Shown piece by piece: positions 1 through 42,446 of a stretch of 64,000 nucleotides of DNA (position 1 is the first letter of the stretch; the number at the start of each line of letters is the position of its first letter). The notes beneath the pieces were generated by a model. The model made no database searches. It had not been told where the DNA came from and saw only the letters and a program-made list of their open reading frames with translations. The stretch is from Tribonema minus (taxonomy: Eukaryota > Sar > Xanthophyceae > Tribonematales > Tribonemataceae): assembly GCA_017506865.1 (NCBI GenBank), contig JAFCMP010000005.1, positions 372,001 through 436,000 on the forward strand, read 5' to 3'. The position numbers were made by a program, and so were the translations under genes.

Positions 1-360
1 TTGCACTGTCTGAGCACTGAGCGTGCCGCCGCACGTGCGTCGTCGACGGCTCGGCAGACGTCATGCCGTGCGCGTGCGCGTCGTGAGCAGCAGCGCGGCG
101 ATGCCGCAGGCGCAGTGTAGCAGGCTGGCGCCGGCTTCGGGAAGCAGGTGAGCGCGGTATCGAGGTGGCGTGCCAGTGACGCAGGCATACTCAGCCTGGT
201 CCTGCTTGGCAGTTTTTTTTTTATTCACTGTTTGCGCACTGAGCACGACGTGGCCGCGCTACATGGGCGACGGCATGTCATGCGTTGACATGCCGTGCGC
301 GCAGCGCCGACGGCAGCTGCCACTGGCAGTTTTGGCAAGAAGTTGAATGTGAGTGCGTTA
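1..360 (+). repeat. Degenerate direct duplication at the window edge
   Basis: Bases about 1-160 and 231-360 are diverged copies of one segment. Both run through a CACTGAGC-type start, a shared CATGCCGTGCGCG block and a GTGAGTGCG- or GTGAGCGCG-like end. The first copy ends at CAG|GTGAGC, which is a good splice donor. This could be the 3' end of an exon that starts left of the window plus a decayed downstream copy, as seen elsewhere here. No reading frame is convincing. Confidence 0.4.
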
Positions 361-633
361 CAACAGTAACGTGCAGGTCAGAGACCCACGTGGGGGGTGC
401 AGGTGCACACTGTTCCTCACCATAGTCAACGCAGACCGCAGGCCTGGAGCGCACAGAGCAAGCGGCACGTGCGGCAGTGGCGGCGGCGGCAACGGCGGCG
501 GTGACGGCGGCAGCTGGGCCGATGCATATTCTTGCGCCGCTGCTTGTATCTGAGGCAAAGCTTGCGACATTGCAGCGCATCAGGGGGGCCAGCACTGACA
601 GTTGCACTGGCCGCGCCTCCCCCGTGTGTGCAG

Positions 634-941
634 AGCACAAAGGCCGAGTGGGCGGCGCAGGGTCACCGACTGCTGTGCAACGCGCAAGCGCGCGGCGACA
701 CCGACGCACCTTGGAGTTAGCGCTCCTCTGCTTCGAGAAGGCAGGGCTGCAGCGCGCACAGCAACGGATCCGCGCGCAGCTGGCGCTGCATGCGCTGCGC
801 GCTGCCGCCGCCGCTGCGCAGCAGCGGCAGCAGCGGATCGGCAGCGGCGTGAGCGCGGCGCTGCGGCGGCGGGGCGAGGACGCAGCGTAAAAGTGCCTGG
901 CGGCGGGCCTAGTGGAGCACGCGGCGGTCGCGCTGTGGACG
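634..941 (+). CDS. Probable exon, helical TPR-like segment, frame disrupted
   Basis: This GC-rich stretch is bounded by an acceptor (GTGTGTGCAG, ending at 633) and a donor (G|GTACGTG at 942). It encodes in turn EWAAQGHRLLCNAQ, then in a shifted frame LELALLCFEKAGLQRAQQR, then KCLAAGLVEHAAVALW. The pattern W..QG..L...A..CFEKAG......A resembles helical repeats in the C-terminal parts of TRANK1/UvrD-helicase-linked TPR proteins; that is a weak family guess. The frame changes once near 685-715, and a TAA interrupts it at 888-890, so the exon is either decayed or wrongly delimited. It probably belongs with the exons from 1448 onward. Confidence 0.3.
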
Positions 942-1447
942 GTACGTGTGATAAACCTCAACATGAAGTTGGCCCCTGACTCTGTCGGCTTGTGCCTTCA
1001 TCGTAATTTTGGAGTGAGGCTGTGCTGGAAACTTACCATGGCCTCAAAGCTGCAGCCGTCAAATGCCGTTTCAAGTCTGTGATTTGATGGGGTCTGCTTA
1101 TCACAACAGAAACTGTCAGCGCTGTTTCCCATTGTGTGTCATGAGCTCTGCCGCTCAGTTGTGGAAGCCCACAGTTGGATGTCCTTGAATGCGCAGGCTA
1201 ATCTGCATTACTTGTTTTAGGTGAATCTGGTGTGCTTTGGACGACACGGCTCTGCGCCACCTGGCCACAGCACAGAAACCATTCCATCAGCCACACTGCA
1301 GACTAGAACTTTCAAAGTTGCATGATAGTACTTAACTTCCGCATTTTGCACTCCGTCGCTGCAGCATGAGCACCGTGGCACAGAACAGCGCATGCCACTG
1401 ACACCAAATACCCTGTCTCACAATACTGGTGTGATTCGCCTGTTGCC

Positions 1448-1636
1448 ATGCATGCTGCTGCCCGTCACTTGTACCAGGTATGCAACTACCAGAAGGCCGG
1501 CGAGCTCCTGCGAGAGCTCGGGAGGGTTGAACTGGCAGAGGGCAGCAGTGCTCAGGCCCACGCGCACCTCGAGCGCGCCGTCGCAGCCTTTGACGCCGCT
1601 GGCAGTCCTCGCGATGCGCTTGAGTGCTTGCAGCAG
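1448..1636 (+). CDS. Exon of TPR-like protein
   Basis: The open frame contains ARHLYQVCNYQKAGELLREL followed by AHLERAVAAFDAAGSPRDAL, two amphipathic helix-turn-helix units of TPR type. It ends in phase 0 at CAG|GTGCG. The next exon (2174) also starts in phase 0. The 5' limit is unsure: either the ATG at 1448 or the acceptor TTGTACCAG within it. It may continue the helical array of the 634-941 exon. No catalytic motif is visible. TRANK1-like TPR domains are one possible relation, unproven. Confidence 0.45.
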
Positions 1637-2173
1637 GTGCGTCTCTGGCGTGAGAGGCAGCAGTGCTGCAGCCCCCTTCGCCGTTGACCAGTTGTCTCGG
1701 ACACGCTTGCCTGCACCGCATCTCTGGCATGAGTGCTGCGACGGTCACGGCAGAACTGCTATTGTGATCCCACATACAACTTTGAGCAAAGACACAGCAC
1801 CTCGGCTAGCAAACGCTCTCAGTGCCGGCTCTGTCATGATGCGATTGCCGGATGTGCAACGATGCAACTGGCATCAGGCTCCTTGTCAGGAAGCAGAGCA
1901 TATATGCTGTGCGTACATGTGTGTATTAATTTGTTAATGAATCGGTCAAGCTGATGTGCAGACGAGCCGCCGAGCACTAATCAGTGAGTGTTTGAGATCC
2001 CAAAACGCGTTGTTGCCACTGCGTTGCTGCCACCACAGCTGTTGCTGCAGCAGCCGTGCCTCGATTTACCCACTGCCTGCAGCGCATTGTACACCAAACT
2101 TCAACCCCATAGCTAGCGCTACCCCTCTCATGGCTGCAAATCTTCACCCCTGGCCCTCACCCTACCTGCGCAG

Positions 2174-4450: not shown

Positions 4451-4584
4451 CGCGACACGCTACTGAGGCAATCAGGGCACATATGTGCTGCACGCGCAAG
4501 CTGGATGGCCTCCAGCCGGCTCGCCGTCAGCGCCGACGTTGCGCTCGGCGCCATAGCTCTGGAGGGCGCTGCGATGGCCATCAG
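4451..4584 (+). CDS. Short exon of the same plus-strand gene
   Basis: The acceptor CTGAGCAG and donor ATCAG|GTGATG bound 134 bp. It starts in phase 0, matching the previous exon, and ends in phase 2. It encodes RDTLLRQSGHICAARASW and then LALGAIALEGAAMAIR-like helical residues. The last 45 bases with the donor are repeated about 135 bp downstream (4681-4732). The exon that follows in phase was not found; the candidate at 6546 needs phase 0. Confidence 0.45.
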
Positions 4585-4680
4585 GTGATGCCAGCGGCCA
4601 TGGCAGTAGTCACTGCGTTGAAGTGCCACGGGCAATGTGTCGGTGCCATATCTGCATACACCCTTAATATTTTTAAGCTG

Positions 4681-4732
4681 TGCTCGGCGCCATAGCTCTG
4701 AAGGGCGCTGCAATGGCCATCAGGTGATGCCA
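4681..4732 (+). repeat. Echo of the 3' end and donor of exon 4451-4584
   Basis: GCTCGGCGCCATAGCTCT, a GGGCGCTGC block and ATGGCCATCAGGTGATGCC recur with only two or three changes relative to 4545-4596. The copy includes the exon end and the GTGATG donor. It lies in the following intron and has no open frame leading into it, so it is probably unused. Confidence 0.75.
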
Positions 4733-6545: not shown

Positions 6546-6659
6546 GCTGCTGGGAGTGATGTCTGCGCGAGCCGCCGCACCGCAGCACGCCTGGCCGCAG
6601 CTGCATCCCGGGGGGATGCAGTTGCAGAAGACGCTTGCCGCCGCAGCATCTCAGACATG
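6546..6659 (+). CDS. Candidate 114-bp exon
   Basis: The acceptor GTTTGCAG and donor ACATG|GTGAGA bound 38 codons that are open in two frames. Phase 0 agrees with the next exon at 7110; phase 2 agrees with the previous one at 4584. At least one neighbouring exon is therefore missing from this model. The product is Ala/Arg-rich and has no recognisable motif. Confidence 0.35.
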
Positions 6660-7624: not shown

Positions 7625-7673
<49 letters not shown>

Positions 7674-8754: not shown

Positions 8755-9000
8755 GCAGTCTAAGTGATCCTCATGCAGGAGTGAACATGATGCGTTGCGC
8801 CATGTGAGCTGTGTATGCGGACCACCGACGACGGGTAATTACAAAGGTCTGCAATGACGTTGAAAGCTGTTGGTGTTTTTGGCTTCACTTGGCCCATCCT
8901 TGGAGTCAGCTGCTGAATCCATTCACTTGCTACAGGCATACGTTCAAGCACCTTCCTCCCGCCTGCCCCCCCCCCTCACCTTGTTTGCCACCTGCTGCAG

Positions 9001-10984
<1,984 letters not shown>

Positions 10985-18330: not shown

Positions 18331-21300
18331 TCAAGCGCCCAGCACCGGCGCCAGTGCGTGCCGGTGGACGTACAGGTGCAGCGCGCGGCGCACGCTGAAG
18401 CCGATGCCGCGAAGCATCCGCCGCACGTCGGAGCGCGCTGCCGGCGCGGGGCCCGGCCGTGAGAGCCACGCCGCGGCGGCGAGGCAGTACGCGTGGCGCC
18501 GCCCGAAGGCGTGCGCGGCGACGGCGCACTTCGCGGCGACCATGCGGACGTGCTGCTCGGGAGAGGCCTGCAGCGCCACGGAGGGTGAGGGGGGGGGGGG
18601 CAGGGCACTTTCACTAGAAGTCTCCGCAACGTCCATGTTCGAGATGGTACGCAAGTGCGCAAGAATGCTGCACGCACGACGCGTTGCGGAACCGACATGA
18701 TTGCCATGTGAAGCACCCTGCTGTGCTGTTGTGCAGCTGCGCATGCTTGGGAGTCTGCATGCAGTGTAGGTGACGCCTTGTTCAGATTGAAAAGCGGCCC
18801 TGGACAGCAATGTGCTGGCTGTCTTCGGACGCTGCCTGCAGGGGAGCTGAGCGCTGAGGTACTGCAAACATGGTGTTCCCGCTGACATACCGGACTTTTC
18901 TACATTGTGTTTCACAGACAAGCTGGGGGCTGTTGAACAATTGCGCTGCAGGACAGTCGCGAGTTGAGTCTGCGCACGCCTTCACTTCACATCGCACTGA
19001 TATCTGAATCTTGACATTGATTCAAACGTCACGTTTCGCAGTCTTGACAGACACATCATTTGCACCCGAAAGGGCTGTGCTGGGCATACGTGAGCAGGTG
19101 TTGAAATTTCACGTCGTGTTTGTTGCGCATGCACTTCTGCGCACGCTGCACATGCAAAACGTACAGGCACAGCCAACGATGAGGTAGGGCAGCGGTACCT
19201 GCTGCTGCAGCGCGGCAAAATGTGAGGGGCTGTGTTGAGAAACTGAGACTGATTTTCTGTTCAAGCACTTTTGCGCACTATGTGCACGCAATCATTCAGG
19301 CACAGCACACAACAAATGAGGCAGCCGTACCTGCTGCTGCAGTGCTGCAAACTCCTCCCCCACAGCGCCAGAGGCATCCGCTGGTATGAGAAACGGCTCC
19401 GCTTCCTCTATTTGCCCAGCCTGTCAGTAACAGCGGTCGCAACAACGAGTCACATGTCAGATGTGCATTGGCAATGTCATCTAGAGTTATCATCGATGAT
19501 CTCTTGAAGTGCTTTTGTCATCAGAACGGTGGACGTGCACTCCGGTAGCGAGCTTGGCATGTGCATCAACAGTAGAGTTTTGCGCGCTAGGCAAACATTA
19601 ACAAGAGGTGCACAACTCCCATTGACCGCTGTCTACTGCAGAAGCGCATGGCTGCCTGCAAGTGTGCGCCCAGGAAGGCATGAAAAATAAGCCGTATCGG
19701 CTCAGCGCATGCGTCATTACAGTGAACGTAGACTCCGGTAGCAAGCTTGACATGTGCATCAACATTGGAAGTTAGCGCACCACGCAAAATTAACAAAAGG
19801 TGCATAACTCCCATTGACCGCCAGCTACTGCAAACGCGCATGGCTGCCTGCAAGTGTACGCCCAGGAAGGCATGAAAAATGAGCCGTATCGGCTCTGCGA
19901 AGTTTGCGCTCCACAACTGAAGCAGCGAAGATGATGCTGCATCACACCATGAACAGCCATGCAAGCAAATGCATGCAGCAGTGCATTTGCTACATTCGCA
20001 ATCATAATGTGCGGGCGACGCTTCTTTGGACAAAAGAGTGAGCAGCAGCTGGAACAGCGCAACGGAGAGATGGCAATAACACTTGCGAGCGGTCTGCTGA
20101 GCAATGTAACTTCCCAGGGTGGGCGTCATCACTTGCCGTTATCTTAGGGTTAGGGTTAGGTAAATTGCTTCTGCGGCAAAGTACAGCCGCACTGCCGGCC
20201 TACAACCATGCATCCTCAACATGAGCTGTACAGACCTTTCAAGAGACCACAGAATACTGCTGCATACTATCATATATATATCATACAGATTTTTCCAGGC
20301 CAGGAAACAGCTGTGACTCACTTACTCACTCACTCACCGCGGCGGCAGCGCTGTGCTCTGCAACTGAAGACTCTATTGAGTCTGTACAGCTCGTTGTCCT
20401 CGTGCCTGGAGACAGCCACGATTTACTCACTGACTCACCCACTCACTCACTCACCACCACGGCGGCGCCCAGCTCTGCGACTGCGTCTGGCTGAAGACTC
20501 TGTGGAGCCTGTACAAGTCTTTTTCCTCAGCTCAAAGAGCCATGACACACTCACTCACTCACTTGCTCACTCACTCACGGCAGCGTCCATGCCCAGGGCT
20601 ACGCTCTGTGACTGCGTCTGGCTGACGACACGACTGAGCCCGTACGGGTCTTCGCCGTCGTGCCTGGAGACAGCCATGACTCGCTTACTCACTCACTCAC
20701 CTGGAAACAGCCATGACTCTCTTGGTCAGTCACTGACCTGAAAACAGCCACAACTCACAAACTCATTCACTCACCGCGGCGGCGCCCATGCCCAGTGCTA
20801 TGCTCTGCGATTGCGTCCGGCTGAGGACTCTTCGAGCCCGTACAAATCTTTTTCCTCGTGCTCCAAAGAGCCATGACTCACTCACTCACTCGCTCACTCA
20901 CCGTGGCGGCGCCCATGCCCAGCGGCTCTGCGACTGCGTCTGACTGAAGACTCTGTTGAGCCCGTACGGGTCTTCGTCCTCAGACCTGAAAACAGCCCTG
21001 ACTCACTTACTCACTCACTCACCTGGAAACAGCCATGACTCACTTACTCATTCACTGCCCTGAAAGCAGCCTTAAATCACTTACTCATTTACTCACCGCG
21101 GCGGCGCCCATGCCCAGCTATGCTCTGCGACTGCGTCCGGCTGAGGACTCTTCGAGCCCGTACAAATCTTTTTCCTCGTGCTCCAAATCGCCATGACTCA
21201 CTAACTCACTCACTCACTCACTCACTCACTCACCGCGGCGGCGCCCATGCCCAGCGCAATGCTCTGCGACTGCGTCTGGCTGAAGACTCGGTTGAGCCCA

Positions 21301-24300
21301 TAGGGATCTTCGTCCTCTTCGTCGTAGTCAGCCTCCGAGTCGTCTGACGCCATGAGCAGGCCCCATGCGGCGTTGACTTTGTTCTGACCGTCCGCCGCTG
21401 AGTCGCTGTGGCGGCGCGGAGCGATGGGGCAGCACGTGTCTGAGCGCTGCCTGCAGTGTTCAAGTGCGCGCAGCCGGTGCCTTTCATTCCAGGACAACAT
21501 GCGATGTGTGATGGCTGACATTTGTTGGTGTTGGACGCCGACTGATTGCGAACAACATGCAATTTGTGATGGCCAAGATCTGACGTTGCTGGAGATGTTG
21601 TTGGTTTTTCATCGCAGCTGATTTCGCACAAGGCAGTGAGGCTGTTGCTGTCGTTGTCCTCATGGTACGTCTACCATAACTGTTTGCAGTATGGTAAGTC
21701 CTCGTTGCACTTGGCGGCGGTCTCATTGCAGCTCATATGAGGCCCGACCATGAGCTGTCAAGTCATGGCTGGGGAGGTGGAGGGGCAAGCTACAAATTCA
21801 CATTGCACTGCTGCTTGCATGTATCACCGGAATGCGATCACTCTTCAATGCCCAACTGAACAATCCACTACATTATTGATTTCTCCATGCACAGGACGAC
21901 CAATTTGCTGTCTCCCTAGCCTTGAACACGGGCAGACAGAACACATAAAGTACGTTCTCCACTACTTCAACGTCACATCCTTCAAAGCATACGTCCACAT
22001 ATTCAAGCTTGTGCATGCGGATTTGTCCATGCAGAGGGCGTGCGGGGGAGGGAGGGGGCTCATGGATGCGAACCCATGTGTCAAGCAGCACGCGGAATTC
22101 GCATTCGCCATCGCCCCAACAACTCCCACATCTCCCATGCGTAGCCAAAAGTCACCTGTCTGGCTCCGCTTCACGCGCCTTCGCTTTCTTCTTCGTCTTC
22201 TTGCTCGCTCTTGCGCTGCGCTGCGCGGCGGCCTTCGCCTTGCCCCCCTGCTTCTTGCCTCTGCCCTTGGTGGCAATGCCACCGTAAGACGCGTCACTGT
22301 CGCTACTGGCCGTGGCGTTGGGGCTCGGGCTTGGCTGCCGCCGCTTCTTCAAGTGGACGTTGCGGCTGTGCTCCGCCTTCGCACCCCTGCCGCCGCTGCG
22401 GCCGCCGCCGCCCTATTCACAAGGCAGTGAGAGAGGTGGCGCGTGAGCACTGAGCTGCAAGGCACGCGCGTCATGCAGCAATCTCAGGTTCAGCGACGCG
22501 CAGCCGCGCGCGCACGCGGGGTGCAGTTGACGCGCCACAATTGCTAAACCTCAAACAGGCGATCTCACCTCCGCTGGAAGGCAGGCGCGCTATGCAGCGT
22601 TATCAAAATCAGCGAAGCACAGCGCGCGCGCACGCGGGGTGCAGCTGACGCACCACAATTGTTGAACTTCACACAAGTCAATCTCACCTTTGCACGCTTC
22701 CCCGCCTTCTTGCGGGCCCTTTCGCCAACGGCCTCGGCGTCGCTGCTGCCTTCGTCATCCGAGCGCTGCCGCTTTCCGGTGAGCACTGCCGTCCCCTTCT
22801 TTGCCCCCCTCGCGTCGCCGCCGCCGCGACCCGCGTCGCTGCTGCCTTCGCTGCCGCTGCCAGCGTCGTCTGCCGCAGCGCTGCTCGGCGTCTTGCGTTT
22901 CGCAACTGCCTTTGCGTGCGCCTTGCGAGAGCCCCCCCCAATCTCACTCTCATCTCCACTGAAGCCGCTATCAGCAGCAGCAGCAGCAGCAACAGCGGTG
23001 CTGGCGCGCGCCGCAGCTTGCGCTCTGCGCTTCGCCGGCTTCCTGCCCGCAGCAGCGGACGCGTCGCCGCCGCTGTCGCTGGCGCTGCCACTGTTTGAGC
23101 TGCGCCTCCTCTCGCCCCCAGGGCTGCTGCTGCTGCCGCTGCGTCTGCGTCTGCGTTCATGCTGTACCTGTCCTTTCGCTCTCTTACTGCTGTCAGCAGC
23201 AGCGGGGGGCCCACTGTCTTCGCTGCCGCTGCCGCCGCTGCCGCTGCCGCCGCCGCCTCTGCTGCCGCCGTCGTCATGCTTGGTGCACCGCCCCGCACCA
23301 CGCCGCCTGGATGCGGGAGCATCACCGACATCGCTTGTCGTGTCGCCGTCGTCGCTTTCTCGCGGTGCCTTGGCACCGCCAAGCGCCTTCACGCCACCAG
23401 CGCCGGCCGCATTGCTGTCCGTTTCGGTCCCGGATCCATCGCCGCGTGCGTGCGCGCTGCGCTCCGCCCGCTGCCGCTTTTGCCGCCGCGCCGCGCCCTC
23501 CGCGCTGTCAGCGTCGCTGCCCGAGCTGCTGCGCCGCGCCTGCCGCTGCAGCTGCTCCTTCCGCCGGGCCGCGCGCTTGGCAGCGGGGGCGTCACTGTCA
23601 TCGCCGCCGCTGCCGCCGGAGCCGCTGTCCCCTCCACTGCCTCCATCACGCTGCCTCTGCTCGCCGAGCGCTGCGGCGCGGCGCCGCTTCCGGCTGAGCA
23701 CTGGTGCAGCGTCGGCGCCGCCCCTACTACGCCCCATGCCCCCCCTCAGCCGCAGCACATCAAAGCCTCTCCCACCGGCGATCTGAACGCTGCCGCCGCT
23801 GGCATCGGCGCTCAGGCGCTGAGCAGTGACATCGGTCCTGCTGCCGACTGGTGCCCCCGCCGCGGCAGCGCGTCTCGCGAGCGGCAGGCCGCCGCCGCTG
23901 CATGCCCCCGCGCTTGCGGCGGCGCGTGCTTGCCGCCGCTGCGCAGCATAGCTGTCAGCATCGCCCCCCTCATCTGCGCCGAGCGCGCCGCCGCGCAGGC
24001 GCAGCGGAGCGCTGCCCTTGATCCCAGCGCTGCCCTTGCTCTTCCGCGCCGTTTTCCGTCTCCGCCGTTTGTCGCCGCCGCTGCTGCTGTCTGACGCTGG
24101 CGCCCCACGCTCGCCGCCCCCCTGCACGCGCCGGCCCTTCTCGGTTCTGCGGTCACGGCCACCGCTGTCGCTGCTGCTGCCCCCTTCACTCTCGCTTCCA
24201 CTGTTGCTGCCGCCCCGCACCTGCCGCATGCTCGCTGCGATCGCGTCAGCTAGCGACCCAAGGCCGCCGCCGCCGCCGCCGCCCCCGCCGCGCCCAGCTT

Positions 24301-27300: not shown

Positions 27301-29588
27301 GAGTACACATGGCGCATAGTCCGCCTCTGACCTCAACCTCAACCCTCTATCTGCGCTGTCGTTGACTGGCGCAGAGGGCTGCAGCCTCAAGTTCATGTGT
27401 ACATTTGTGCTCAACATTGCAGTTCATCAACAGGCAGGAGACAGAGAGCTGACTGCGTACATGTGAAAGCAGTATTGCCGACTTCATAGGGTACGCCAGG
27501 CACATTTATGCAAACGCTCTGCAACAGTCCCGCCTGCCCCCCCGTTGCCACACTTCATCTGTGACACTCCAGAGCCTGCACTTCATGAAACCAGTGCTCA
27601 GCGCACCGCTGACCACAAATCCCCCTGACCAAACGTCAATGTCCCCAGCGCCGCAGCCGCATGCAGCGGCAAATCGACGTCATTCATGGCACACAAACAT
27701 GCACGCAGTGGCGCGAACGCCGCCCGATGTGCGCGCAGCAGCAGCGCTCGCCCAGCCCGCATGAGCAAGCAGGTGTGTCCTGACGCTATAGCCCCAATGC
27801 TCTCCTCCGCCGATGCTCGGGCGCAGCAGCTCCATCTGCAGTAGCCGTCAGGCTGTCTAGTGCTCATGCTCAGGCGCACCGCGACACCATGTGGCAGCCT
27901 TTACCCACCAAACAAAGTGGCGTGCCAGCATGGCAGCGGCGGCTGCGCAACACGCCCACATCGGCGCGTTACATGCGGAAACCCCGGATCAGCCGCCACG
28001 CTAGCCCTAGCCCCAGGTCGCAGCGCCCGCGCTTGCCACGAAAGCAGCGCAAGGTCGGACTCGCCGTTGCCGCCGCCGCCGCTGTGCGCAGCAGCACCGC
28101 CGCCGTACGTCCAGCGCAGCGCAGCACCAGCCGACGCTCGCAAGTGGCCCTGCTCACGCAGGAGATCCAATCCCCCGCTGGAGCCCCCCTCCCCCCCCCC
28201 CCCCACACACACATGCACACCCTACCTACATACACACCGCGCCACGCACGCGCGCGCGCGCACTCACCTTGCGGAAGTAGCGCAGCGTCAGGTTGGCGTC
28301 GCCGCCGGCGCGCAGCAGCGCGACGGCGGCGCGGTGCGGCGCCGGGTCGAAGGCGCGCGACACGCGCATGAGCGCCGCCGCCGCGCGCGCGGCGCCCGCG
28401 AGGTCGCCCGCCGCCGCCGCCCTTGCGAGCGTCCGCGCGATGAGCTCGCGCGTCGCGTAGCGCAGCGCGATGCCGCGCATGCGCGCGCCCTCGCGCAGCG
28501 GCGGCAGCGCGGCGAGCTCGCCGGCGTACGCGCGCTCGGTGACGCGGCGCAGCGACGGGTCCGCGCGCATGTACGGGTCCGGCGGCGGGTGCACATCGCT
28601 CAGCAGCCTGCGCCCCGACGGCGGTGGCGGCACAAGCGGCAGCGGCGCGCGTCAGGCACGAAGCATTGATCTGGTTGTGAGAGATCGAAGCCTGTTTGCC
28701 AGGTGACAACTTTTATTTGTAGACGACGAAGGCAAATCTGCTGCCAGTCAGGGTGCTGCTTGCATCGAAGCGAGTCTGCTGCATCGAGTCGTGTTTGAGC
28801 AGGCACGCGAGGCGCTCGATGATGCGCTCGTGCGTGCGTGCGCACGGATGTCACACGCAGCGCAAGCGGACGGGTCCGCAAATGCACTTCTATGCTCTTG
28901 CTGGTGACGGTCCATTGCTGCCCGGCGCCTCGCCACAGCAGACTCACGTCATTCAGCCGCATGCACATACGGTAAGTTCATGATGTCTTGCGGTGTCTTG
29001 ACTGGGCGCCACGGCCGCGCTCAAAGCCGTACGCTTCCTCTATCGATTGTGATGGCGGGCGCGAGACCAACCGGCGCGCCCGCTGCACCATGGTACACTG
29101 TTGTTTTAGAATAGCATTCATGTCAAGAGGAAGAAAACTGTGGGTTTTGGCAGGCGACGTACCTGCAGTCTTCCTCATTTTCTTTTGCAACGGCGTTCGC
29201 AAAACGCACGACCAGCCGACGCGCCTGCAGCACTACGGTACACTGCAGTAGACAGTATCATTCCAAGCAAACAATCGTGCCGAGTCTTGAAGTCAGCGAC
29301 ATACCTGTACTCCTCTCTGTTAATGGTGACGGCGGGCGCGAACTGCGACGTCAGCCGGCGCGCCTGCAGCACGGGCAGCGCGCGCCGCCTGCTGCTCTCT
29401 TCCTCCTCCTCGCCGCTCTCCTCGCCTGAGCAGCAGCAGCAGCGGCAGCGAATGTGCGCGCACGCACGCGTCAGCGCCTCCCAGCAAAATGGGCCCGACT
29501 TTTTTTCCTCGTCTCCAGGCACAGACCAAGTCACTTTCTTCGACGCTGATGCGGAGAAGAAAGGGGCGTCTGGCCCCCGATGCTTCAT
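18331..29588 (-). CDS. Seven-exon gene, 1930-residue largely disordered protein, function unknown
   Basis: Exons in gene order are 29588-29305, 28607-28268, 27055-22688, 22412-22156, 21450-21234, 19420-19331 and 18567-18331. All six junctions keep phase, with GT-AG sites, and the stop is TGA. Residues 1-95 contain CWEALTRACAHIRC and an acidic run. Residues 95-420 are helical (MRGIALRYATRELIARTLAR; ADALATASEVMLPHKGRWTE), perhaps TPR-like. Near residue 700 there is a Trp-rich patch (LRDFGVLEWWAEVYFCPEGD). The single 4.37-kb exon 3 also has a Lys/Ala-rich helix and long Ser/Gly/Asp/Lys/Arg disordered tracts, with LRLRGG at residues 1226 and 1309. Exon 4 is a Lys-rich, possibly nuclear-targeting segment. 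The C-terminus is helical. A nuclear role is an inference. A transcription-factor-subunit-like TPR fold was considered but is not supported. Confidence 0.75.
19130..19215 (-). repeat. Echo of exon 6 (19420-19331) 3' end with donor
   Basis: On the minus strand, GCGCTGCAGCAGCAG|GTACCG followed by CTGCCCTACCTCAT-like bases repeats the exon 6 end (GCACTGCAGCAGCAG|GTACGG, then CTGCCTCAT). Flanking CACAGCC and TGCGCAC blocks recur at the same spacing about 135 bp away. The copy lies in the intron after exon 6. Confidence 0.7.
19531..19908. repeat. Tandem duplication of about 190 bp in intron 5
   Basis: Two head-to-tail units (about 19531-19720 and 19721-19908) share CTCCGGTAGC, CTCCCATTGACCG, GCGCATGGCTGCCTGCAAGT and AGCCGTATCGGCTC. 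On the minus strand both read EPIRLIFHAFLG and LQAAMR in one open frame, but no splice sites or phase support an exon. It could be remains of a duplicated exon. Confidence 0.7.
20144..20160 (+). repeat. Interstitial TTAGGG tract (just under three units)
   Basis: TTAGGGTTAGGGTTAGG lies within intron 5 of the minus-strand gene, between the exon-echo array and the 190-bp tandem repeat. A second, similar short tract lies at 62780. This may mark a past break repaired with telomeric sequence. Confidence 0.8.
20337..21233 (-). repeat. Six tandem echoes of the exon 5 end with (GTGA)n donors
   Basis: Exon 5 (21450-21234) ends with DEDPYGLNRVFSQTQSQS and ALGMGAAA, directly followed by GTGAGTGAGTGAG. 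Downstream, this exon end recurs at about 21096, 20899, 20773, 20575, 20453 and 20337 (plus-strand left edges). Most copies are followed by GTGA repeats; units are about 120-200 bp. The 20575 copy keeps an open frame (GEDPYGLSRVVSQTQSQS) and a donor. The 21096 and 20773 copies carry a one-base deletion that leads to a stop. The 20337 copy has an internal deletion. Confidence 0.85.
22445..22687 (-). repeat. Tandem ~122-bp duplication at the exon 3 donor
   Basis: Units of about 22446-22566 and 22567-22687 share GCGCACGCGGGGTGCAG, CGCACCACAATTG-like and CAATCTCACC-type blocks. The right unit abuts the donor of exon 3 (AAAG|GTGAGAT). The left unit has an equivalent GTGAGAT site (plus-strand ATCTCACC at 22562), so the donor itself is echoed. 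Confidence 0.75.
28020..28160 (-). repeat. Degenerate echo of exon 2 3' end
   Basis: On the plus strand, GCGCAAGGTCGGACTCGCCG and the following GCGCAGCAGCACCGCCGCCG resemble the end of exon 2 at 28270-28345 (GCGCAGCGTCAGGTTGGCG, then GCGCAGCAGCGCGACGGCGG). It is more diverged than the other echoes, so composition could explain part of the match. Confidence 0.45.
28755..28900 (-). repeat. Degenerate upstream echo of exon 2 5' part
   Basis: On the minus strand, GCGGACCCGTCCGCTTGCGC through CGACTCGATGCAGCAGACTC follows the order of exon 2 bases 28590-28450, starting at GCGGACCCGTCGCTGCGCCG. It sits in intron 1, upstream of the real exon, where a 5' echo would be expected. Confidence 0.55.
29020..29240 (-). 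repeat. Two echoes of exon 1 3' end with donor
   Basis: The exon 1 end (plus-strand view: TACCTGTACTCCTCTCTGTT, ATGGTGACGGCGGGCGCG, then GCCGGCGCGCCTGCAGCAC) recurs at about 29158-29235 (GTACCTGCAGTCTTCCTC through CAGCCGACGCGCCTGCAGCA) and about 29028-29090 (GTACGCTTCCTCTATCGATT through GATGGCGGGCGCGAGACCAA). Spacing is about 130-145 bp. Both lie in intron 1, downstream of exon 1. Confidence 0.8.
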
Positions 29589-31971: not shown

Positions 31972-34900
31972 ATGTCTGCGAGATCCGCGCTGTCGTCCAT
32001 GGAGTCCGCCACAAGTGAGGCCTCGGATGGTTCCGCGCCGAGGGCAGGCGCCATTGCGCCAGCCAAGGACAAGTGCATATACGATGGCGACAACAAAGGC
32101 CACCCGAGCAAGCTGTTGCAGGTCGCGGTCCTTGGCCAGGTGCGAGAGACATTTGCCGCGCGCATGTGAAAGTAAAGGTTGCCGTAGATGCTTACCTGAG
32201 CGGTAACTTTGAAATTTGCTGAGACTGGAGGATGTCCGATTCTTGCCTCAGAGTATGCGCAGCGATAGTCCAGTCCAGTGGTTGAACAACTCGACATTGT
32301 GCATGAAACATTCAACACAGTGACTGTGAAAAAAGAGGCAGTAACACTGTCATGATGCCATGGCAGTACACAGCAGCAGGCTAAAAGCTCACCGCTTGCT
32401 TGCCTCAAGTGGTTTCTTCAGAGCAGCAGGACCAGCGTGTGATGTTCATTTTCAGTGCCTGGGATCCTCAGACTTGAACCTGGTGCTGTAAATCTTAGAC
32501 TTAAAGTCGAAAAGCTTCCCAGAAGGTGTTGTGCACATGTAGAAGCACTGCAGACCCACATCTTGAGTTTCCATAGGACTGGCGAATGACATCAAATCAT
32601 TCATCTTGATTATCATATGATGTGGCAGCCATGCCATATGTCAGCTCATCGAACTATCGCATGGCTCCATCCTGTGATGCAGGTACGACAGCCTACTACT
32701 ACTAGTACTACAACTTCACATGTACATGTATTGTTCTCATTGTGTTTTCATCGCGTTGTATGTGCGTTTTCACTCGCTGTGACAGGGGCTCCTCGGCACT
32801 GCCCTTGTGACAAGGCTAGAGAGATGCGCCAGCGCCACAGTTCAGGTCTACGCGGGCTCCACCACGTGAGTGGCCTACACCTCGCTCATTGGCTGAACTT
32901 CAAGTTGAAGCGGCAGCTGCTTGTGCTCGTCAGATTTCTGCGGTGCATTGAGCAAGCTCTTGCAGTGCCCTGAGAACTGCAGCAACATGTGTGTCTGGCC
33001 TATCACGCAGTCAAAGCTGATTGCTACGGCTGATACATGCGCATGGGCATTTCACATTCAAAGCTTTACTAGTTTGCAATTCAATGCACCATTTCCTTGT
33101 ACTTTTGAAAGCCTCCATGCAAGCTAGCTAGCTGCCAAGGGCAGCAACTAGTGAATGTTTCCACTGGCAGTTACCAATTGTCAAATTCAACTGGAGGTTA
33201 ACGGTTAACCTCCAGTTGACTTTCTTGCATTTAATTGAAAGATCTTTGCTTTAAGTTCATTTTAGTACTACTTTGACGTGTGACTTCACAGCACTGTCAG
33301 TCAAATCACCACTAACATCACACAATTCATTCAACAAAGTTCACCTTGCATCCCGCACCATGCAAGTACACCGGGCTGGCTGAGTTGCACGCACTCTGAG
33401 GCCGCTGGCGCCCCCAGCGCACTGCAGTCACCGTGACTGTGCACTCTGGAAGGGACTTAACGAGGCTGTCGTTGTGGCACACAGCACAAGCAAATTGCAC
33501 GCAGCATACTCCGAAGTACTATAGTATGCCCGCATGCAGCTGACTGCAGAAGACTGCGCAAGGCACAAGATGCTTCAAGTTGCAGCCTAGGACAGTACAC
33601 GCTTACTGTAGTACACCTGGCAAGCCACATGACACCTCCGACTGCCGCCGCGACATCTCAAGCTCCTCTGCCACTGCGTACGCGCCTCATTGCGCTCATG
33701 TGCTACCGCGGTCTCACGCACTGTGTGGCAGGCCGGGCACCAACACTCTGAGCTACTCGGAGGCCATCGCCGCTGCCCGCATCGTCATACTAGCCATACC
33801 GGCCGGAGCGCACAAGGCCTTCGCCGCTGAGTACGGCGCGCAGCTCCGCGGCCTCATTCTGGTAGATCCAAGCAACGGCACTGGCGAGAACAAGTTCGCG
33901 TATGAGCGTCTCGTCGCCGCGCTGCCGGGGTGCTCTGTCGTCAAGGTACACATGATGCGGAAACACAAGAATGCACTCGCAGCGATGTCGCCAGCGTGGT
34001 GCACGAATCAGATGGCCAGACATAATCTGTGTTGGAGCTCGTGTTGGTTGGTCTGCACTCCGTCGTACGGTATCTTGCCATGTTGACTCTACCACACTCT
34101 CAGTCTGTTAGGCTGCTGTGATTTCTGTAGACTTGCATTACCGACTCGGAAACAGACTCCATGGGTGGCTGGGTGTCCCTTATTTTTGAGAGTTACTCCT
34201 AAGCAGCTTGCTAGTCTGCACTGCTGCTGTACTGTCCCGCAAGCCGACCATCATCCTTTTGCTGGCCCTGCATGGTAGATCCCAAGTCATGGACGACGTG
34301 CTGCTCACGTCTTACCGTTGATCATGCCACAATGCGCCACTTGTGTTGTGTGTGTCAGGGCCTCAATACCATCAGCGCATACGCCCTCGACGACCACGGC
34401 TACGCTAGCGGAGCGACGCTGCCCATCTGCGGCGCCGACGCCGACGCCAAGTGCGTGGTCCTTCAGCTCATTGCGGAGATGGGGCTCACGGTGAGCCATC
34501 TTGAACTTTGAATTTGAGGTTCAACGTGCGCTTACTGTGACTGCCCCCCTGCACTTGTATCAGTTCCCCTGCCTGCACTAATGTAGCACGGGTCCAGGTG
34601 CAGTAGAGTCTGTCGTGTGCCCTCCAGTAGATCCCTGCAGTGCAACACCCTGAGATCAGTACTGAGCGAGGGCACTTGCCAGTGGCGTCAATACTTGCAA
34701 CAGGCGCGTCGTTGTCCGTCGCACTGCCAGGACTGCAGGCGACAGAGCCATTTGGCGATGCTGCAGAACTTCAACTTCAACTGCTGACGCGCTGTCACCT
34801 GCCTCCACAGGGCACCGATGTTGGGGGCGCAGGCCGAGCCCAACACATAGAGGCGCTGCCGCTGGCCTTGTTCTCCAGAGAGACGTGGATCAGCTCCGGC

Positions 34901-37583
34901 ATAGCCCTCATTACGCTTTTCTTCGCATACTGGTATGCGTACATCAGGTGAGTCAGCTTTGAAGATGAAGGTGAACTTGTGGTTTTGATGTTTGCTCTCA
35001 TTGCGGCCAGCAAGTGCTTGTGCTCGTTTGGCCTACGTTCGACCTATGACGATGTGGTACAATGTTTAACTTGTGCACTTGGTGGCTGAACTGACGTTGG
35101 CGTCACTGCGCTGTACATACGTGCGGTCGCGCCCCCGCCACGCACCGCGCTTAACAACATATACATTCAATAGGCCTGATGGGACTACTGCATCAAGATG
35201 CCAGCCAGCTAGCTTCTGATAGCTGGTAGTCCCAAGGCTTAGCACATTGCCATTTACCACGTTCACACTGCTGTTCTTCTTGGCTTGTCTGCAAGCCACG
35301 GCTCTGAATCACTCCAGAGCAGGTGTGCGCCCCGCAACGAGTCGCCGTGTCGCTACATGTCTTGACATACCCCCCGCTTAAGGCCATACCTTGCATCATC
35401 ACTGGCACCCGCCTTACCCTTGCGTTGCTTCCAAGCCCCTTCTTAACCCTAGATGTTTTGCAAATACTACACTGCAGCTTTACAGCCCCCCCCCCCCCCC
35501 CCCCAATTTGACCTGTGCCGAGACGTGAACGCGCACATCTCTGGGTTGTTTACCACCAACCTAGTTGCCAACGATAATATTATTGCTTCCCGAGTTACTA
35601 GCCCGCCTGTGTGTGCAGCAGTGCAATGCCTCTGCTACAACCCAAACAACCGTGCTCACGTGACCGATAAGTTCTGCACCACCTCAACTCTCCGCTCATG
35701 AGTTGCTGAACAGACCCCCCTCCCCCACCCCCCCACCCCTCTGGAACAGATACATCGTCGTCTACAACGGCCCGCCAGCCCACCCCGCCTACCACGGCCT
35801 GCTTTGGGTCATGAACAAGGGGGTCTGCTGGGCGGCCATCACCGTGCTCTCGCTCTCCTTCATGCCGGGGCCGCTCGTGCAGCTGCTGCAGCTGTGGACG
35901 GGGCGCGCGTACGTGACGCTGCGCGAGCCGCTGGCGACCGCCATGGGCTGCCGCAAGGCGCTCGGCCTGTGGGCCGCGTTCTTCGTCGCCAACCACTTCG
36001 GCATGAGCTGCATGCTCATGAACCAGAAGGTGCGCAGCGCTAGTCGACGTTGAACTCGCTGCCGCAAGGCGTTACCAGGTTTGCTCGCCGCGTTCCTTTG
36101 CGGCCGACCACTTCAGCATGAGCGGCATGCTCCTGAATCAGCAGGTGCGCACTAGTTGAAAATGAGCTTGCTGCCGCAAGGCGCTACTAGGGCTGTGGGG
36201 GGCTGCGTTCTTCGTCGCCAACCACTTCGGCATGAGCTGCATGCTGATGACTCAGAAGGTGCATGCGTGGGGCGCGGCGTGGCCGGGGTCACAACATGAT
36301 GCTGTAACAATACCCGAAGTTCCGTCCAAAGTTCTAGTTGAACTTCAACTCGCTGCCTTAGGCCCTAGGGCTGTGATCTGTATTCCTTGCCCTTGCCCAC
36401 TTTGGCATGAGGCGCGTGCTCATAATAAATAGACCCACGCAGGCGTGGCGAGTTGGGTTGTGATGAGTTGAAGTACCACTTTGGTAGGTGTGAAGCTTCA
36501 ATTGCGCACAGCTGCCTCAGCATATGCTTGCAAGTTCCTGAGCAGTACTCTGCGACTTTTGTTTATTGACCCCTTATCCCCCCCCCCACACGGCACTGCA
36601 GGTTTACAAGAAGTTTTATGTCACCGAGGCTGGTGATGGCCACGAAGGATGGCTCAGCATTTCGGTGAGTCACCAGTGTCACTTGATGGCGGACCGCGTG
36701 TGACAACGTCTGAACCAGGTCGCCAACCCCAACGCAAGCCTGCACTGCATATGCTACAGGGCGAGCTCAGCATGCTGCAGGGCGTTGCCGCCGCCACTGC
36801 GCTCAACGCCATGAACCCCGAACCTCAACGTCACATCTTTCACGTAGGCACACTCTGGATCAGAGTGTGCCGTCGTCTTGGGGTCAACCGCATCTTTAAG
36901 TTGCCCCCCCCCCCCCCCCGCCTGCATTTGCGGCCTTGATTGCTGACCTCAACTATTAATTGCCTGTACTGTATCTGCAGGGCGAGCTGAGCATGCTGCT
37001 GGGCATCTTCGCCGCCACGCTGCTCGGTGTCATGACCCTGGCCTCGATGTCACGTCTCTCATGCAGCACACATTCAGAATCACAGTCTGCTGTCGTAGTG
37101 TTCAACTGCATCTTCAAATTGCCCCTGTCCTCCTGCATTTCTAATTATTGCTGCCCCCTACGCCTGCCTTTACTGTGTCTGCAGGGCGAGCTGAGCATGC
37201 TGCTGGGCGTCTTTGCCGCCACGCTGCTTGGCGTCATGACCCTGGCCTCGATGCCCGGCGCGGCGGCCGTCCTCTCCTGGCGCGAGTACCACTTCATCTT
37301 CAGCTACCTCGGCTGGATGGCGCTGGCGGTCTCCACGTGGCACGTCATCGCGACGAGCTACCCCAAGTTCCTGCGGCCGCAGACGCTCGACGCGTACGAC
37401 GGCATGCCGACGGTCGGGCTGCTGAGCATCATCCCGCCGCTGCTCGCCATGGCGCTCAAGCTCGCGGTTCTGGCGTTCACGCCGCGGCTCAACAGGATCA
37501 AGCGCGGCGGGCAGCAGCGTCGCGGGGCGTCACCCGTTGAAGTTCCCGTCAACGCTAAGCTTGCTCCTGGTTCGCAGGTGTGA
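31972..37583 (+). CDS. STEAP-family metalloreductase, 490 residues, eight exons
   Basis: Exons are 31972-32139, 32786-32865, 33732-33945, 34359-34490, 34811-34947, 35750-36029, 36602-36664 and 37185-37583. All junctions are phase-consistent, with GT-AG sites. Residues 47-200 form the NADPH-binding F420-oxidoreductase-like domain. The Rossmann motif VAVLGQGLLG is split by intron 1 (residues 51-60); IVILAIPAGAH and the family motif GLNTISAYAL follow. IEALPLALFS matches the STEAP linker before the membrane part. About six membrane segments follow. Candidate heme ligands are H326 in LGLWAAFFVANHFGMS and H411 in LAVSTWHVIA, after the conserved SWREYHFIFSYLG. The family reduces Fe3+ or Cu2+ using NADPH, FAD and heme in plasma or endosomal membranes; the role here would be metal uptake. 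Length matches four-domain STEAPs. Introns 6 and 7 carry exon echoes. Confidence 0.9.
33187..33219. repeat. Perfect 33-nt palindrome
   Basis: The arms TCAACTGGAGGTTAAC and GTTAACCTCCAGTTGA flank a single G and pair perfectly over 16 bp. It lies in intron 2 of the STEAP-like gene. It could form a hairpin in the pre-mRNA. No terminator role is expected in an intron. Confidence 0.95.
36030..36460 (+). repeat. Three echoes of STEAP exon 6 3' end with donor
   Basis: The exon end (GCTGCCGCAAGGCGCTCGGC through CACTTCGGCATGAGCTGCAT, then CAGAAGGTGCGC) recurs at about 36056-36155, 36168-36270 and, more decayed, 36350-36435. Copies 1 and 2 keep CAGCAGGTGCGC and CAGAAGGTGCAT donors. Units are about 110 bp, and the later one is about 180 bp further on. 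The duplicated segment encodes the helix with the putative heme ligand H326. Copy 2 still reads FFVANHFGMSCMLM. Confidence 0.9.
36745..37090 (+). repeat. Two upstream echoes of STEAP exon 8 5' end with acceptors
   Basis: GCAG|GGCGAGCTGAGCATGCTG with the following CTGGGC...GCCGCCACGCTGCT is the real start at 37185. The block recurs at 36981 (about 75 bp nearly identical, CTGCAG acceptor kept) and at 36760 (more diverged, CTACAG acceptor). From 36981 the frame is open through to the real exon with 204 bp added, so use of this acceptor would add 68 residues in frame. Confidence 0.92.
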
Positions 37584-37740
37584 AAGTAGAGACAGCCAGG
37601 GTTGCAGTTGACGTGGGCCTTGGTTGCGCCTGGCTCGCAGGTGTGAGAGGAGGCCCGTTAGAGTTGGAGTTGACAAGCGGTAGGGGGGGAGAACGGGGGG
37701 CGGGGTCTGGCTCACCAGGCGGCACGTCAACCGCAACTGG
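37545..37740 (+). repeat. Echoes of the STEAP 3' coding end
   Basis: The end of the last exon (GTTGAAGTTCCCGTCAACG through CTCCTGGTTCGCAGGTGTGA, stop at 37581-37583) is followed by similar units at about 37600-37655 (GCGCCTGGCTCGCAGGTGTG) and, weaker, 37660-37735. They lie in the presumed 3' UTR. Confidence 0.6.
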
Positions 37741-38890: not shown

Positions 38891-38959
38891 GAATTGGGCG
38901 GCGCTGGGGCAGTAGGGCCCAGATTGCACAGTGAGGTGATCTTGCCACTGGTGAGCCCA

Positions 38960-39160
38960 GCGATGTAAGTGGTCTTGAATACAAATACACAGGAGACAGA
39001 CTGGTCATAAACGGGCGGCATCTGAGAATCACCATGCGACTGTAGTCGCAGGTTATAGGCAACTGGACAACATGCAACAGCAAAACCAATGTTGCTTTGC
39101 CCGGTATGCCACATTGAGAAACCGCAGTACTAAGTGAAGCTGCATCAACATGCGCAGCAC
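38960..39160 (+). repeat. Dispersed repeat A (partner 43060-43270)
   Basis: Shared blocks in the same order and orientation include ACACAGGAGACA-like/ACACAGGTGACA, TTGGTCA-type, CTGGACAACATGCAACAGCA versus CTGGACAACACGCAAAAGCA, CCACATTG and CAGCATCA-type ends. Divergence is moderate. No frame is kept. Confidence 0.65.
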
Positions 39161-39344
39161 TCACCAGCCATCTTCAAGTTGGTAGCTGGCTGAGGACGTC
39201 CAGGTCGATGATGTGCCGTCAGAGCTGGTAGTAGGTCCTGAAGTGATTTGTATGCGCGCATCTCAGCGAGCTGCCCAACTCGCTACCGTCAACAAGGCGT
39301 GCCATGAAGTGGCCATGCGACTGCAGGGCGAATGGGTCGGCGGA

Positions 39345-39742
39345 ACGCCGGATCTACTAGTAGTACTCGTCCCCGGGTCATGGCGAGTCCGGTACCTGCG
39401 TAATGTGGGGCACAGCGTCTCACCTGGTTCCTACGCGCGGTGAGAGACCTCCGCTGGCATTCAGTGGGTGTTTCAACGTCTGGTGCGTATGCCCCGACGA
39501 CGTTCTCATACTGGCGCACTGCAGTTGGCCGAGAGCGCTGTGGACGGCGCGAATTGGCTTGAGACTCTCGGAAAGGTGCAGCCTGGGCATTGCGAGCGCT
39601 GCGGAGGCTGTCAGCTCTCTTTCCACTATCTCGTCAATGGCAGACCTGCAATATGTGTGTGTTTTGGACCACAGATTTCGGTAAGATGCTCAAGGCGTTG
39701 TTGCGCTCGGCACCTTCGCGCGTGTCAGCCATACTCCCTATC
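39345..39742 (+). repeat. 398-bp direct repeat, copy 1
   Basis: The segment runs from ACGCCGGATCTACTAGTAGT to ATACTCCCTATC. It matches 40119-40516 with two differences noted by eye (G/A at about 39484 and 39542). A 376-bp single-copy spacer lies between the copies. Confidence 0.95.
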
Positions 39743-40118
39743 TTTCAAGTTGCACACAGGAAATTGCTAGACAGCAGGGATAGTTCCTGAAGATTCTCGG
39801 CCAGTTCTGTGGCCAGTTCTGAAAGGTTCTGAAACTGCAAAATGCTTTGCTTTGAATGCTTGGTTCAGAGCCTTGGGGGAGCTGTAGCGGCAGCTTGCAA
39901 GGTAGTAGATTGCGGCATAGCGGATTCGCTGTGCATTGGGATTGCATTGACAGTAGTGTAGCTTGGAGAGGGCTGCAGCATGGGGCTGTAGCTGTGGGGG
40001 CAAATAGAGGGTTGGGCTTTCTGGGACTTGATCACCCTTGGATCTCTACCTGCTGCTTGCTACCAGCACGCTTGAGAATAGCACCATTCTGTTAGTTGGA
40101 GGAGTCTGAGGGAATGTT

Positions 40119-40516
40119 ACGCCGGATCTACTAGTAGTACTCGTCCCCGGGTCATGGCGAGTCCGGTACCTGCGTAATGTGGGGCACAGCGTCTCACCTG
40201 GTTCCTACGCGCGGTGAGAGACCTCCGCTGGCATTCAGTGGGTGTTTCAACGTCTGGTACGTATGCCCCGACGACGTTCTCATACTGGCGCACTGCAGTT
40301 GGCCGAGAGCGCTGTAGACGGCGCGAATTGGCTTGAGACTCTCGGAAAGGTGCAGCCTGGGCATTGCGAGCGCTGCGGAGGCTGTCAGCTCTCTTTCCAC
40401 TATCTCGTCAATGGCAGACCTGCAATATGTGTGTGTTTTGGACCACAGATTTCGGTAAGATGCTCAAGGCGTTGTTGCGCTCGGCACCTTCGCGCGTGTC
40501 AGCCATACTCCCTATC
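40119..40516 (+). repeat. 398-bp direct repeat, copy 2
   Basis: This is the partner of 39345-39742. The downstream sequence continues an open frame that the first copy lacks, so copy 2 is likely the parental position. The ends lack TG...CA, so it is not an obvious LTR pair. Confidence 0.95.
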
Positions 40517-40882
40517 GATGCGGGCTATGCTGACACGAGCGCAGATCAGTCCTGGTTAGCACCGGATGCTTTAGAGGCTCTGCGCGCCCCCTGTAAGCTG
40601 ACGCTCTACGCAGACGTAAAGGTCATCAGCGTAATGTATTTCCGTAAACTTTGAACTTCGCGACGTGTCGCTGCATGCAGAGCAGATCTCAGAGACTGGC
40701 CCGAGTTTATTGAAGCTTTCGCATCTAGGGAGACAATGAAGTCTTTCAGCTTCTTTAGCAATGAGTTGACTAGCCCGGCAGAAGCTTTGGTCGCGGCTGG
40801 GTGTGAAGTATTTGACCCTACCGTAGCAACAGCGGTGCGCACGCCCAGGGACTGCAGCAGCAGGCCGCAGTCGCAAACATGA
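40364..40882 (+). pseudogene. Degenerate coding fragment across repeat copy 2
   Basis: One frame runs from 40364 to 40882 with a single TGA at 40652-40654. It encodes FGKMLKALLRSAPSRVSAI, then DAGYADTSADQSWLAPDALE. After the stop come DLRDWPEFIEAFASRETMKS and ALVAAGCEVFDPTVATAV, ending at TGA 40880-40882. Composition on both sides of the stop is protein-like. A phase-consistent intron that removes the stop was not found. The family was not recognised; it may come from a mobile element or a decayed exon. Confidence 0.4.
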
Positions 40883-41244
40883 GGTAATGGAGGGAGCAAA
40901 GACAGGCGAGAACTAATGATCAGAACGGAGCATACGTGCTCAAATGCTATATGGGGATGCTGGTGCCACGTGAGTGGGGAGTGATCCTTTCTCGGTGTTG
41001 GGCCAGGTACGAAAAAAGAGTTCAAGTTCAAGTAGGGTGGGGGAAAAAAAAGGGTCAGCAGTAGTACCCTACCTTCCCCAGGTGAGCCAAGTTGTTGATA
41101 GCGGCGGCGGTGATGCCGCCACGGCTGGCGGGCCGCCGAGTGAGCTCAGTATACGGCGCCGATTCGCCGGCGCACTAAAGTCTATACTCATCCTTTTAAA
41201 TAAACACTGTCACTTTTGTTCGTTGCCTTCGCTGCCCCTTCCAG

Positions 41245-41614
41245 GGCCTGATCACCAGCAACCATGTGCCGAGCCATAGCTAATCGCACTGGCGAGCGGT
41301 GCAGGACCAGTCCATTGACGGGAGACGTCTACTGCGGCACCCATCGCCGTATGCTGGACGAAGGCCGCTGTGCGCGTGACAGCGGTGGTGACGATGACTC
41401 CAGCAGCGACTCGGAGGCGCCACCGGCACGCGTGGCCGCCGCGACTGGCCGGTTATCACGGTCAAGTGAGCCTTTATGGACGACAGCCCCGCCTTGCACG
41501 CTGTGTCAGCTGCCATCAGTGACCCATAGCTCGGAGCTAGAACTCAATCGGCACTTCGTTTGCGTCCTCTCGCCGTGCTACATACCCATTCAGGACCTGC
41601 CAGACTGCCAGTGA
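41245..41614 (+). CDS. Zinc-motif protein or exon, copy 1
   Basis: After an acceptor-like CCTTCCAG (ending 41244), an ATG at 41264 opens a 116-codon frame. It begins MCRAIANRTGERC and continues to DVYCGTHRRM. C2, C13, C24 and H27 form C-x10-C-x10-C-x2-H, the layout of a small predicted zinc-binding module (an R-C and Y-C-x2-H pattern) known from phage, giant-virus and scattered cellular proteins. An Asp/Ser-rich linker and a second pair of cysteines (CTLCQLPSVTHSS) follow. Function unknown. The same exon start is duplicated 502 bp downstream. Confidence 0.45.
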
Positions 41615-41746
41615 GTGGGCTCCGAGCAAGGGGAGGCATGCTGTGCCAAGCCATACCCGAGCATGCCAGTTCACTGCCAGGGTGGCTGAAAGTTAACATC
41701 ATACTTTAAAATTTGTGCGCTTGCCTTGCTGTGTGCCCCGATCCAG

Positions 41747-42446
41747 GGTCTGATCCACCAGCAGACCGGAAGTGCCAAGCCACACTAATTGCACTGGCAA
41801 GCGGTGCAGGAACAGTCCATTGGCGGGAGACGTCTACTGCGGCACCCACCGCCGTATGCTGGACAACGGTCGCGGTGTGTGTGGCAGCGGTGCTGACGAT
41901 GACTCCAGCAGCGCGGCGTCACCGGCACGTCCCGCCGCCGCGCCTATGCAGCTGGCGAGCGGACGTGTGACACGCAGAGGGGTGCCACATGGCGCAGGCA
42001 TGGTGTGCGTACAGCACACCGAGCACACCAGTCTCTGCAAATGTGGCAGGACGTGCAACAACGTCAAGGCTCTACGACTAGACTGTGGGATGTTCCACCG
42101 TCGGGCCTCTGATGGTCAGCTGGTGCGGTGCACCTGGTCCAACTTGGCAACGCTGCACGCCCACATTAACGATGAAAGCAGAAGCAACTTCAAAGTCTTG
42201 GCTCGTGGTGGCCTGCGCCAGCTGCAACAACAAGCGTGTTTCCACAATGTACGTCAACAGAAACGACTGCATCGATTTCCAGCGCACGCCGGGGTGCAGA
42301 GCACTTCATCGCAGAGAGGCAGGTACGGAGTTTGTTGGGACGTTTGTCACCATTGCGCGCAGCAGGCTTTGAGATGCGCCACAGCGGTGTGGACCACGGC
42401 TGGCTTAGGCCCGGGGGTTGGATTGGGGTGTGGTTCAACAAGTTGA
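41747..42446 (+). pseudogene. Zinc-motif copy 2, frameshifted at the first cysteine
   Basis: The acceptor ATCCAG and GGTCTGATCCACCAGCA match 41245 onward. A one-base deletion near 41790 puts the first Cys out of frame, whereas TGKRCRNSPLAGDVYCGTHR remains open. Downstream it differs from copy 1: it continues through cysteine-rich SLCKCGRTCNNVKALRLDCG and VRCTWSNLATLHAHIND to a stop at 42444-42446. That continuation may be the older 3' part of the gene. No family was assigned. Confidence 0.4.

Follow-up and report, generated by a model that had tools for sequence, protein, structure and literature searches.

Several described systems come close to the one presented here. In the potato RdRp gene, a tandem duplication across an intron-exon boundary created a new intron (PMC4974935), and in the AGGT model a duplicated exonic AGGT segment becomes the new splice sites (PMC3443670). 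Direct repeats of 4-30 bp have been detected by comparing both borders of one intron (PMC11782384), small tandem duplications arise from break fill-in (PMC8355091), and introners place copies of a single element in different genes (PMC9860276). Here we describe a 64,000-base window of Tribonema minus (C5:372001-436000 of a 158.18-Mb eukaryotic assembly with 554 contigs), in which copies of an exon edge with its splice site lie inside the adjoining intron. We call such a copy an echo. An earlier note on this window had proposed exon-edge duplications of this kind, and the pattern proved to be real and to recur in unrelated genes, also outside the window.

The echoes resemble the potato event in that a boundary-crossing tandem duplication carries splice signals. 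Unlike that event, a single one that made a new intron (PMC4974935), the copies here remain in an existing intron and affect roughly one in four of the junctions sampled, often repeatedly. The AGGT model likewise has an internal gene duplication interacting with splicing, although the AGGT arrangement differs from the one here (PMC3443670). Simple AGGT intron birth was rejected, as the opposite splice site carries no such copy. The repeats of PMC11782384 are also direct repeats at intron borders, whereas an echo is a longer copy of a single border and lies within the intron. DNA repair that leaves short tandem duplications is a plausible source of echoes; the passages available on it mention no preference for junctions (PMC8355091). 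Like introners, echoes affect many introns of one genome, but those tested were locus-specific (PMC9860276); at these loci, the same sequence was not found in introns of many unrelated genes. No report of a comparable echo density was found in the open-licence literature, which was covered mostly as titles and beginnings of abstracts.

Exon-edge copies in a STEAP-like gene

Two arrays of echoes belong to an eight-exon gene of the forward strand (Table 1). Both halves of its predicted protein read as STEAP-like, hence the provisional name; the lone Pfam match, F420_oxidored, scored 20.1 bits, under the cut-off of 21.6. The reading frame was uninterrupted across the joins of exons 3-8, and P0001, a transcript-derived EukProt protein of a relative, matched these exons with 96% identity across the full query. 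Exon by exon, P0001 could be aligned to all eight exons, 1 and 2 included. The protein contains a single exon-6 end and a single exon-8 start, whereas the genomic DNA contains two good additional copies of each. P0001 crosses the exons without an added segment, and each echo lies within one existing intron, supporting for this gene the earlier claim that one copy is kept by splicing; elsewhere, continuity of the frame and of the hidden Markov model (HMM) points to the same.

The two echoes downstream of exon 6 are 76-87% identical to its end. They account for the copies previously reported at 36030-36460, of which only the portion at 36370-36460 proved weak. Upstream of exon 8, the reported copies of its start at 36760 and 36981 do include the acceptor and begin at 36738 and 36962. 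These entire units are 74.8% identical over 313 columns, and the younger echo matches exon 8 with 93% identity over 89 bases. In whole-genome DNA searches, with scoring limited to the best candidates, neither array was found anywhere except at its own locus. The 3′ end of the gene was also correctly noted as duplicated: the end of the coding sequence and its stop codon are repeated in tandem past the stop, which suggests that splice sites are dispensable for such duplication.

Frequency and fate of echoes across genes

For a sample external to the window, the assembly was searched with the Pfam myosin and kinesin families, only the best candidates were scored, and sequence was taken for the best 30 matches of each. 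Neighbouring exon matches were joined into introns by frame, HMM position and GT/AG. The resulting set contained 61 introns (54 from myosins and kinesins by homology and 7 from the STEAP-like gene) with 122 junctions in 28 gene pieces. In the statistics, the borders of STEAP-like intron 1 were 2-3 bases off (32137/32783 instead of 32139/32786). Unpairable exon matches were excluded from this set and used only for a one-sided junction test, and random plus non-gene sequence (61 kb) served as background. With two dynein genes, chosen from the match list before sequence inspection (2 of the 4 first chosen; 5/8 introns resolved), the whole sample thus comprised two cytoskeletal families, one window gene and this third family.

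Local alignment detected 57 echoes at 30 of the 122 junctions. Totals varied with script limits: slightly altered settings gave 28/122 junctions, and another set gave 52 echoes. When 70-base windows were compared with 25 null scores, 19/60 donor and 19/60 acceptor windows exceeded all of them, compared with 5/104 exon-interior windows (chance expectation, ~4%), 15/164 windows from four random 10-kb bins and 6/93 from the final 21 kb of the window. Intron interiors also exceeded all nulls, in 47/294 windows of echo-free introns and 135/268 of echo introns; coverage was 16-50% in introns and 6.5-9% in random or non-gene sequence. Against a null of 40 samples of other genes' introns, 18/60 donors and 18/60 acceptors scored higher in their own intron (exon interior, 3/104; intron interior, 34/120). 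One-sided junctions behaved similarly, with 10/18 donors and 11/26 acceptors (21/44 in total) compared with 5/41 exon-interior controls. Dynein echoes were present at 3/10 junctions and confined to a single gene of the pair. Over the mapped gene pieces, variation between genes exceeded chance (permutation p=0.0066). Echo introns were longer, with a median of 851 bp (n=23) against 568 bp without echo (n=38; p=0.013), in support of the intron growth that had been suggested.

The nearest echo was 83-371 bases away (median 162). The arrays that were examined closely (STEAP-like gene, C7 and C516, the last with a five-unit acceptor array) consist of tandem units with homologous intron parts, which in some units were no longer alignable. 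Local repeats were direct in 240 cases and inverted in ~26. In an earlier 49-intron set, a downstream copy was present at all nine donor junctions that lay within a blast repeat (one also had an upstream copy), and all six such acceptor junctions had upstream copies. The direction rule proposed before is therefore real, but it is a consequence of geometry, because the other side is coding and an exon-side copy would break the protein. As expected of break repair, the arrangement is a direct tandem one, and no donor sequence was found elsewhere for the STEAP-like arrays, the ones searched for this.

Echoes differed from their exons by 0 to ~25%, and by 0/66 to 12/66 inside one array. Mismatches at codon positions 1, 2 and 3 numbered 100/1060, 87/1066 and 141/1061; the third-position excess is explained by silent changes in the exon itself, which would add to it. 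GT was retained in 26/31 echoes and AG in 18/22 (4/57 stop short of the junction), near the (1-0.088)^2=0.83 expected at about the neutral rate with ~9% decay per site. Splicing at the echo site would reach a stop in 44/52 cases, and echo spacing showed no frame preference (14/17/21 for remainders modulo 3, n=52). The missing frame preference, the stops and the neutral loss of GT/AG indicate that echoes are decaying and not coding. As a functional process, the exon duplication suggested earlier is not supported, and alternative (mutually exclusive) exons were rejected, since neither a kept frame nor coding constraint was found. Intron creation had also been proposed and is not supported; no new intron was seen.

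Two further features of introns were recorded. When k-mers were searched for a motif at breakpoints, an intron-start motif emerged: GTTGAAGTTGAA-like motifs are enriched right after donors (26 in the first 50-base bin vs ~6.6 expected per bin), for example at C1:1009294, C79:614494 and window position 34490. Telomere-like TTAGGG repeats occur off contig ends at 41 places in 315 kb, 13 of them in the 61 mapped introns; examples are C7:51068-54728 and window positions 20144-20150.

Other duplications in the window

Only the STEAP-like exons are backed by a transcript-derived protein; the other exons in the window are putative, predicted from a reading frame with GT/AG (Table 1). The duplications reported at 4681 and 19130 were found again, the latter with a match of 29/32. 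The minus-strand array at 20337-21233 has about seven copies, the majority with a GTGAGTGAG donor-like end; its matches in the rest of the assembly are short (30-56 bases). On the same strand at 29020-29240, two decayed copies match the putative exon end at 59/81 and 43/58 positions. The zinc-motif segment reported at 41245/41747 is a genuine 82% duplication with a spacing of 497. At 22445/22570 the duplication was upheld (41/50), while its content is donor and intron with almost no exon; the copy placed at 28755 was not confirmed, a gappy 37/48 match close by being all that was found.

Table 1. Positions of exon edges, their echoes and related duplications in the window
Feature	Position	Strand	Remarks
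STEAP-like gene, 8 exons	31972..37583	+	frame and alignment of protein P0001
STEAP-like exons 1-4	31972-32139, 32786-32865, 33732-33945, 34359-34490	+	borders of exons 1-2 read from sequence
STEAP-like exons 5-8	34811-34947, 35750-36029, 36602-36664, 37185-37583	+	
Source: exon-6 end and donor	35947..36033	+	exon ends at 36029
Echo 1 of exon-6 end and donor	36058..36148	+	
Echo 2 of exon-6 end and donor	36170..36262	+	87% identity
Possible third exon-6 echo, heavily decayed	36397..36423	+	23/27 bases, weak
Older echo of exon-8 start and acceptor	36738..36828	+	
Younger echo of exon-8 start and acceptor	36961..37049	+	93% identity to exon 8
Source: acceptor and exon-8 start	37165..37253	+	exon starts at 37185
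STEAP-like coding sequence end and stop codon	37561..37612	+	tandem repeat 37624-37674 past stop, 41/52 identical
Putative exon end and GT donor	4540..4593	+	echo 4679-4732, 51/54; exon without homology support
Putative exon end CAGCAG/GTACGG	19262..19351	-	echo 19128-19219
Array of ~7 copies, putative exon end and donor	20305..21317	-	first copy ends ~21232, others downstream on minus strand
Donor and intron start	22573..22689	-	echo 22454-22570, 81% identity
Putative exon end and donor	29296..29372	-	echoes 29154-29233, 29038-29088
Zinc-motif segment, putative exon	41215..41446	+	duplicate 41712-41945, 199/242 identical

The window also contains a 398-base direct repeat (39345-39742 and 40119-40516; 99.5% identical, 774 bases apart) that is much younger than most echoes, and an unbroken run of 341 CAG triplets (1,023 bases) in an open frame at 9230-10252. 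The minus-strand gene at 47195-48829 is one of a large putative membrane-protein gene family with 94 matches in the assembly.

Probable origin of the arrays and possible exon-echo conversion

We consider it probable that echoes result from ordinary local tandem duplication that is tolerated since splicing keeps one copy, while the other copies decay and the intron lengthens. Duplications at the observed spacing often straddle a splice junction in this genome, and error-prone repair or slippage is their likely source. The spliceosome would continue with the copy joined to the rest of the exon and leave the extra copies in the intron, so the protein would be unharmed, as P0001 indicates for the STEAP-like gene. 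Intronic copies then decay neutrally along with their splice sites, as the mismatch and GT/AG counts show, and retained copies would lengthen the intron, consistent with the longer echo introns. The earlier note's proposal of recurrent local tandem duplications that span splice junctions, with copies decaying in the intron, is supported. Echoes look like a by-product of local duplication rather than a functional device.

The comparison of junctions with intron interiors that the earlier note had called for gave a divided answer. Per-position coverage was equal (junction windows 38/120, intron windows 182/562). In contrast, when arrays were detected from introns alone, blind to the exons (n=24), 19 included the junction compared with 7.6 expected from uniform placement (simulated p ~1e-5, arrays treated as independent). 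The excess persisted without the richest gene, C516 (14/19 vs 6.7 expected, p=0.0004), and 10/12 genes were above expectation. Intron-internal arrays were no denser (5 in 45.4 kb) than those of the background (8 in 61 kb). By exon-inclusive counts, all 17 arrays of at least three copies were at junctions, compared with 2/7 two-copy arrays (expected 2.0). Two classifications were discarded: a first one had considered only junction-touching hits and linked 13/24 arrays to junctions, exon context giving 19/24, and cluster counts of 14 donor, 11 acceptor, 6 edge and 4 internal had used exon sequence and overstated the bias. A C545 array first taken as acceptor-linked was interior on reclassification with exon context. 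Junction-spanning arrays most likely outnumber intron-internal ones because selection on the exon constrains one of their copies, so that the array stays recognisable. Exon-anchored persistence of this kind appears likelier than a mutational hot spot.

Gene conversion and unequal exchange with the exon copy may also renew the copies next to it. Two inverted myosin paralogs, A and B (C79:609582-616362 and C79:688495-696366), have exons ~91% identical and introns roughly 40-80% identical, and are useful for dating duplications; whole-gene alignment was uninformative within most of their introns. (For a pair on C540, the comparison was limited to blastn.) In the third mapped intron, A and B have a common echo with the same upstream flank, indicating that the echo probably predates the paralog split. 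At three sites that distinguish A from B, each paralog's exon matches its own echo, and the alignment suggests exon-echo gene conversion as the best account of these sites.

Several observations weigh against parts of this account. Splice models outside the STEAP-like gene are homology-based, not RNA-based. With intron-only counts, the copy-number contrast fades to 11/19 vs 1/5 (Fisher p=0.32); the copy-number argument for exon-anchored renewal rested on the exon-inclusive counts. In some young units the exon part (0/66) is far better preserved than the intron part, which simple neutral decay does not predict. Among 39 echoes at multi-echo junctions, 22 were closest to the exon, 14 to another echo and 3 were tied. 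Conversion was observed at a single locus. Even there, the A echo matches B instead of the A exon at two further sites, and in the preceding intron the changes specific to the A exon do not appear in its echoes, indicating that conversion is partial, not general.

A bolder version of the duplication reading takes junctions in this lineage as preferred, recurrent duplication sites, with constrained exon ends as master copies that would keep seeding intronic arrays, drive continued intron growth and form a reservoir from which exons could be converted; we put it forward tentatively. That junctions are mutational hot spots, where a nucleosome edge, an R-loop or a base-composition step would let breaks or nicks start duplications, could account for the excess of exon-blind arrays at junctions, with or without the richest gene, and for intron-internal arrays being no commoner than background. 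It is nevertheless doubtful, as two-copy arrays were unbiased in the exon-inclusive counts and per-position coverage was equal. This equal coverage, and the exon parts that dominate many alignments, would instead be expected if duplication were uniform and detection biased because decay of the exon part affects just one side. Such bias alone is rather unlikely, since exon-blind detection still placed 19/24 arrays at junctions and introns exceeded random and non-gene sequence in coverage.

Function as alternative exon ends or splicing regulators would fit the retention of GT or AG in most echoes, and one echo that is 94% identical between paralogs where the intron just beyond is no longer alignable; it is improbable given the lack of frame preference, the stops, the near-neutral rate of GT/AG retention and a codon-position pattern that silent changes in the exon itself explain. 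Local duplications are a recognised class of assembly artefact, a very improbable origin for copies that differ from the exon by up to ~25% and include one that two paralogs share together with its flank. Mobile elements, introner-like or other, to which the similar repeat pattern across many introns might point, are hardly credible, because the STEAP-like arrays were found at their own locus only in searches with scoring confined to the best candidates, the 20305-21317 array has only short matches elsewhere, and 18/60 donor and 18/60 acceptor windows scored above the introns of other genes.

Echoes touch on two open questions, what causes introns to grow and how splicing survives intact decoy sites 80-370 bp away. 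This genome could show how frequent boundary-crossing duplications are that create no intron. Datable, locus-specific copies of junctions would provide natural experiments on the choice of splice sites, the growth of introns and gene conversion between exon and intron.

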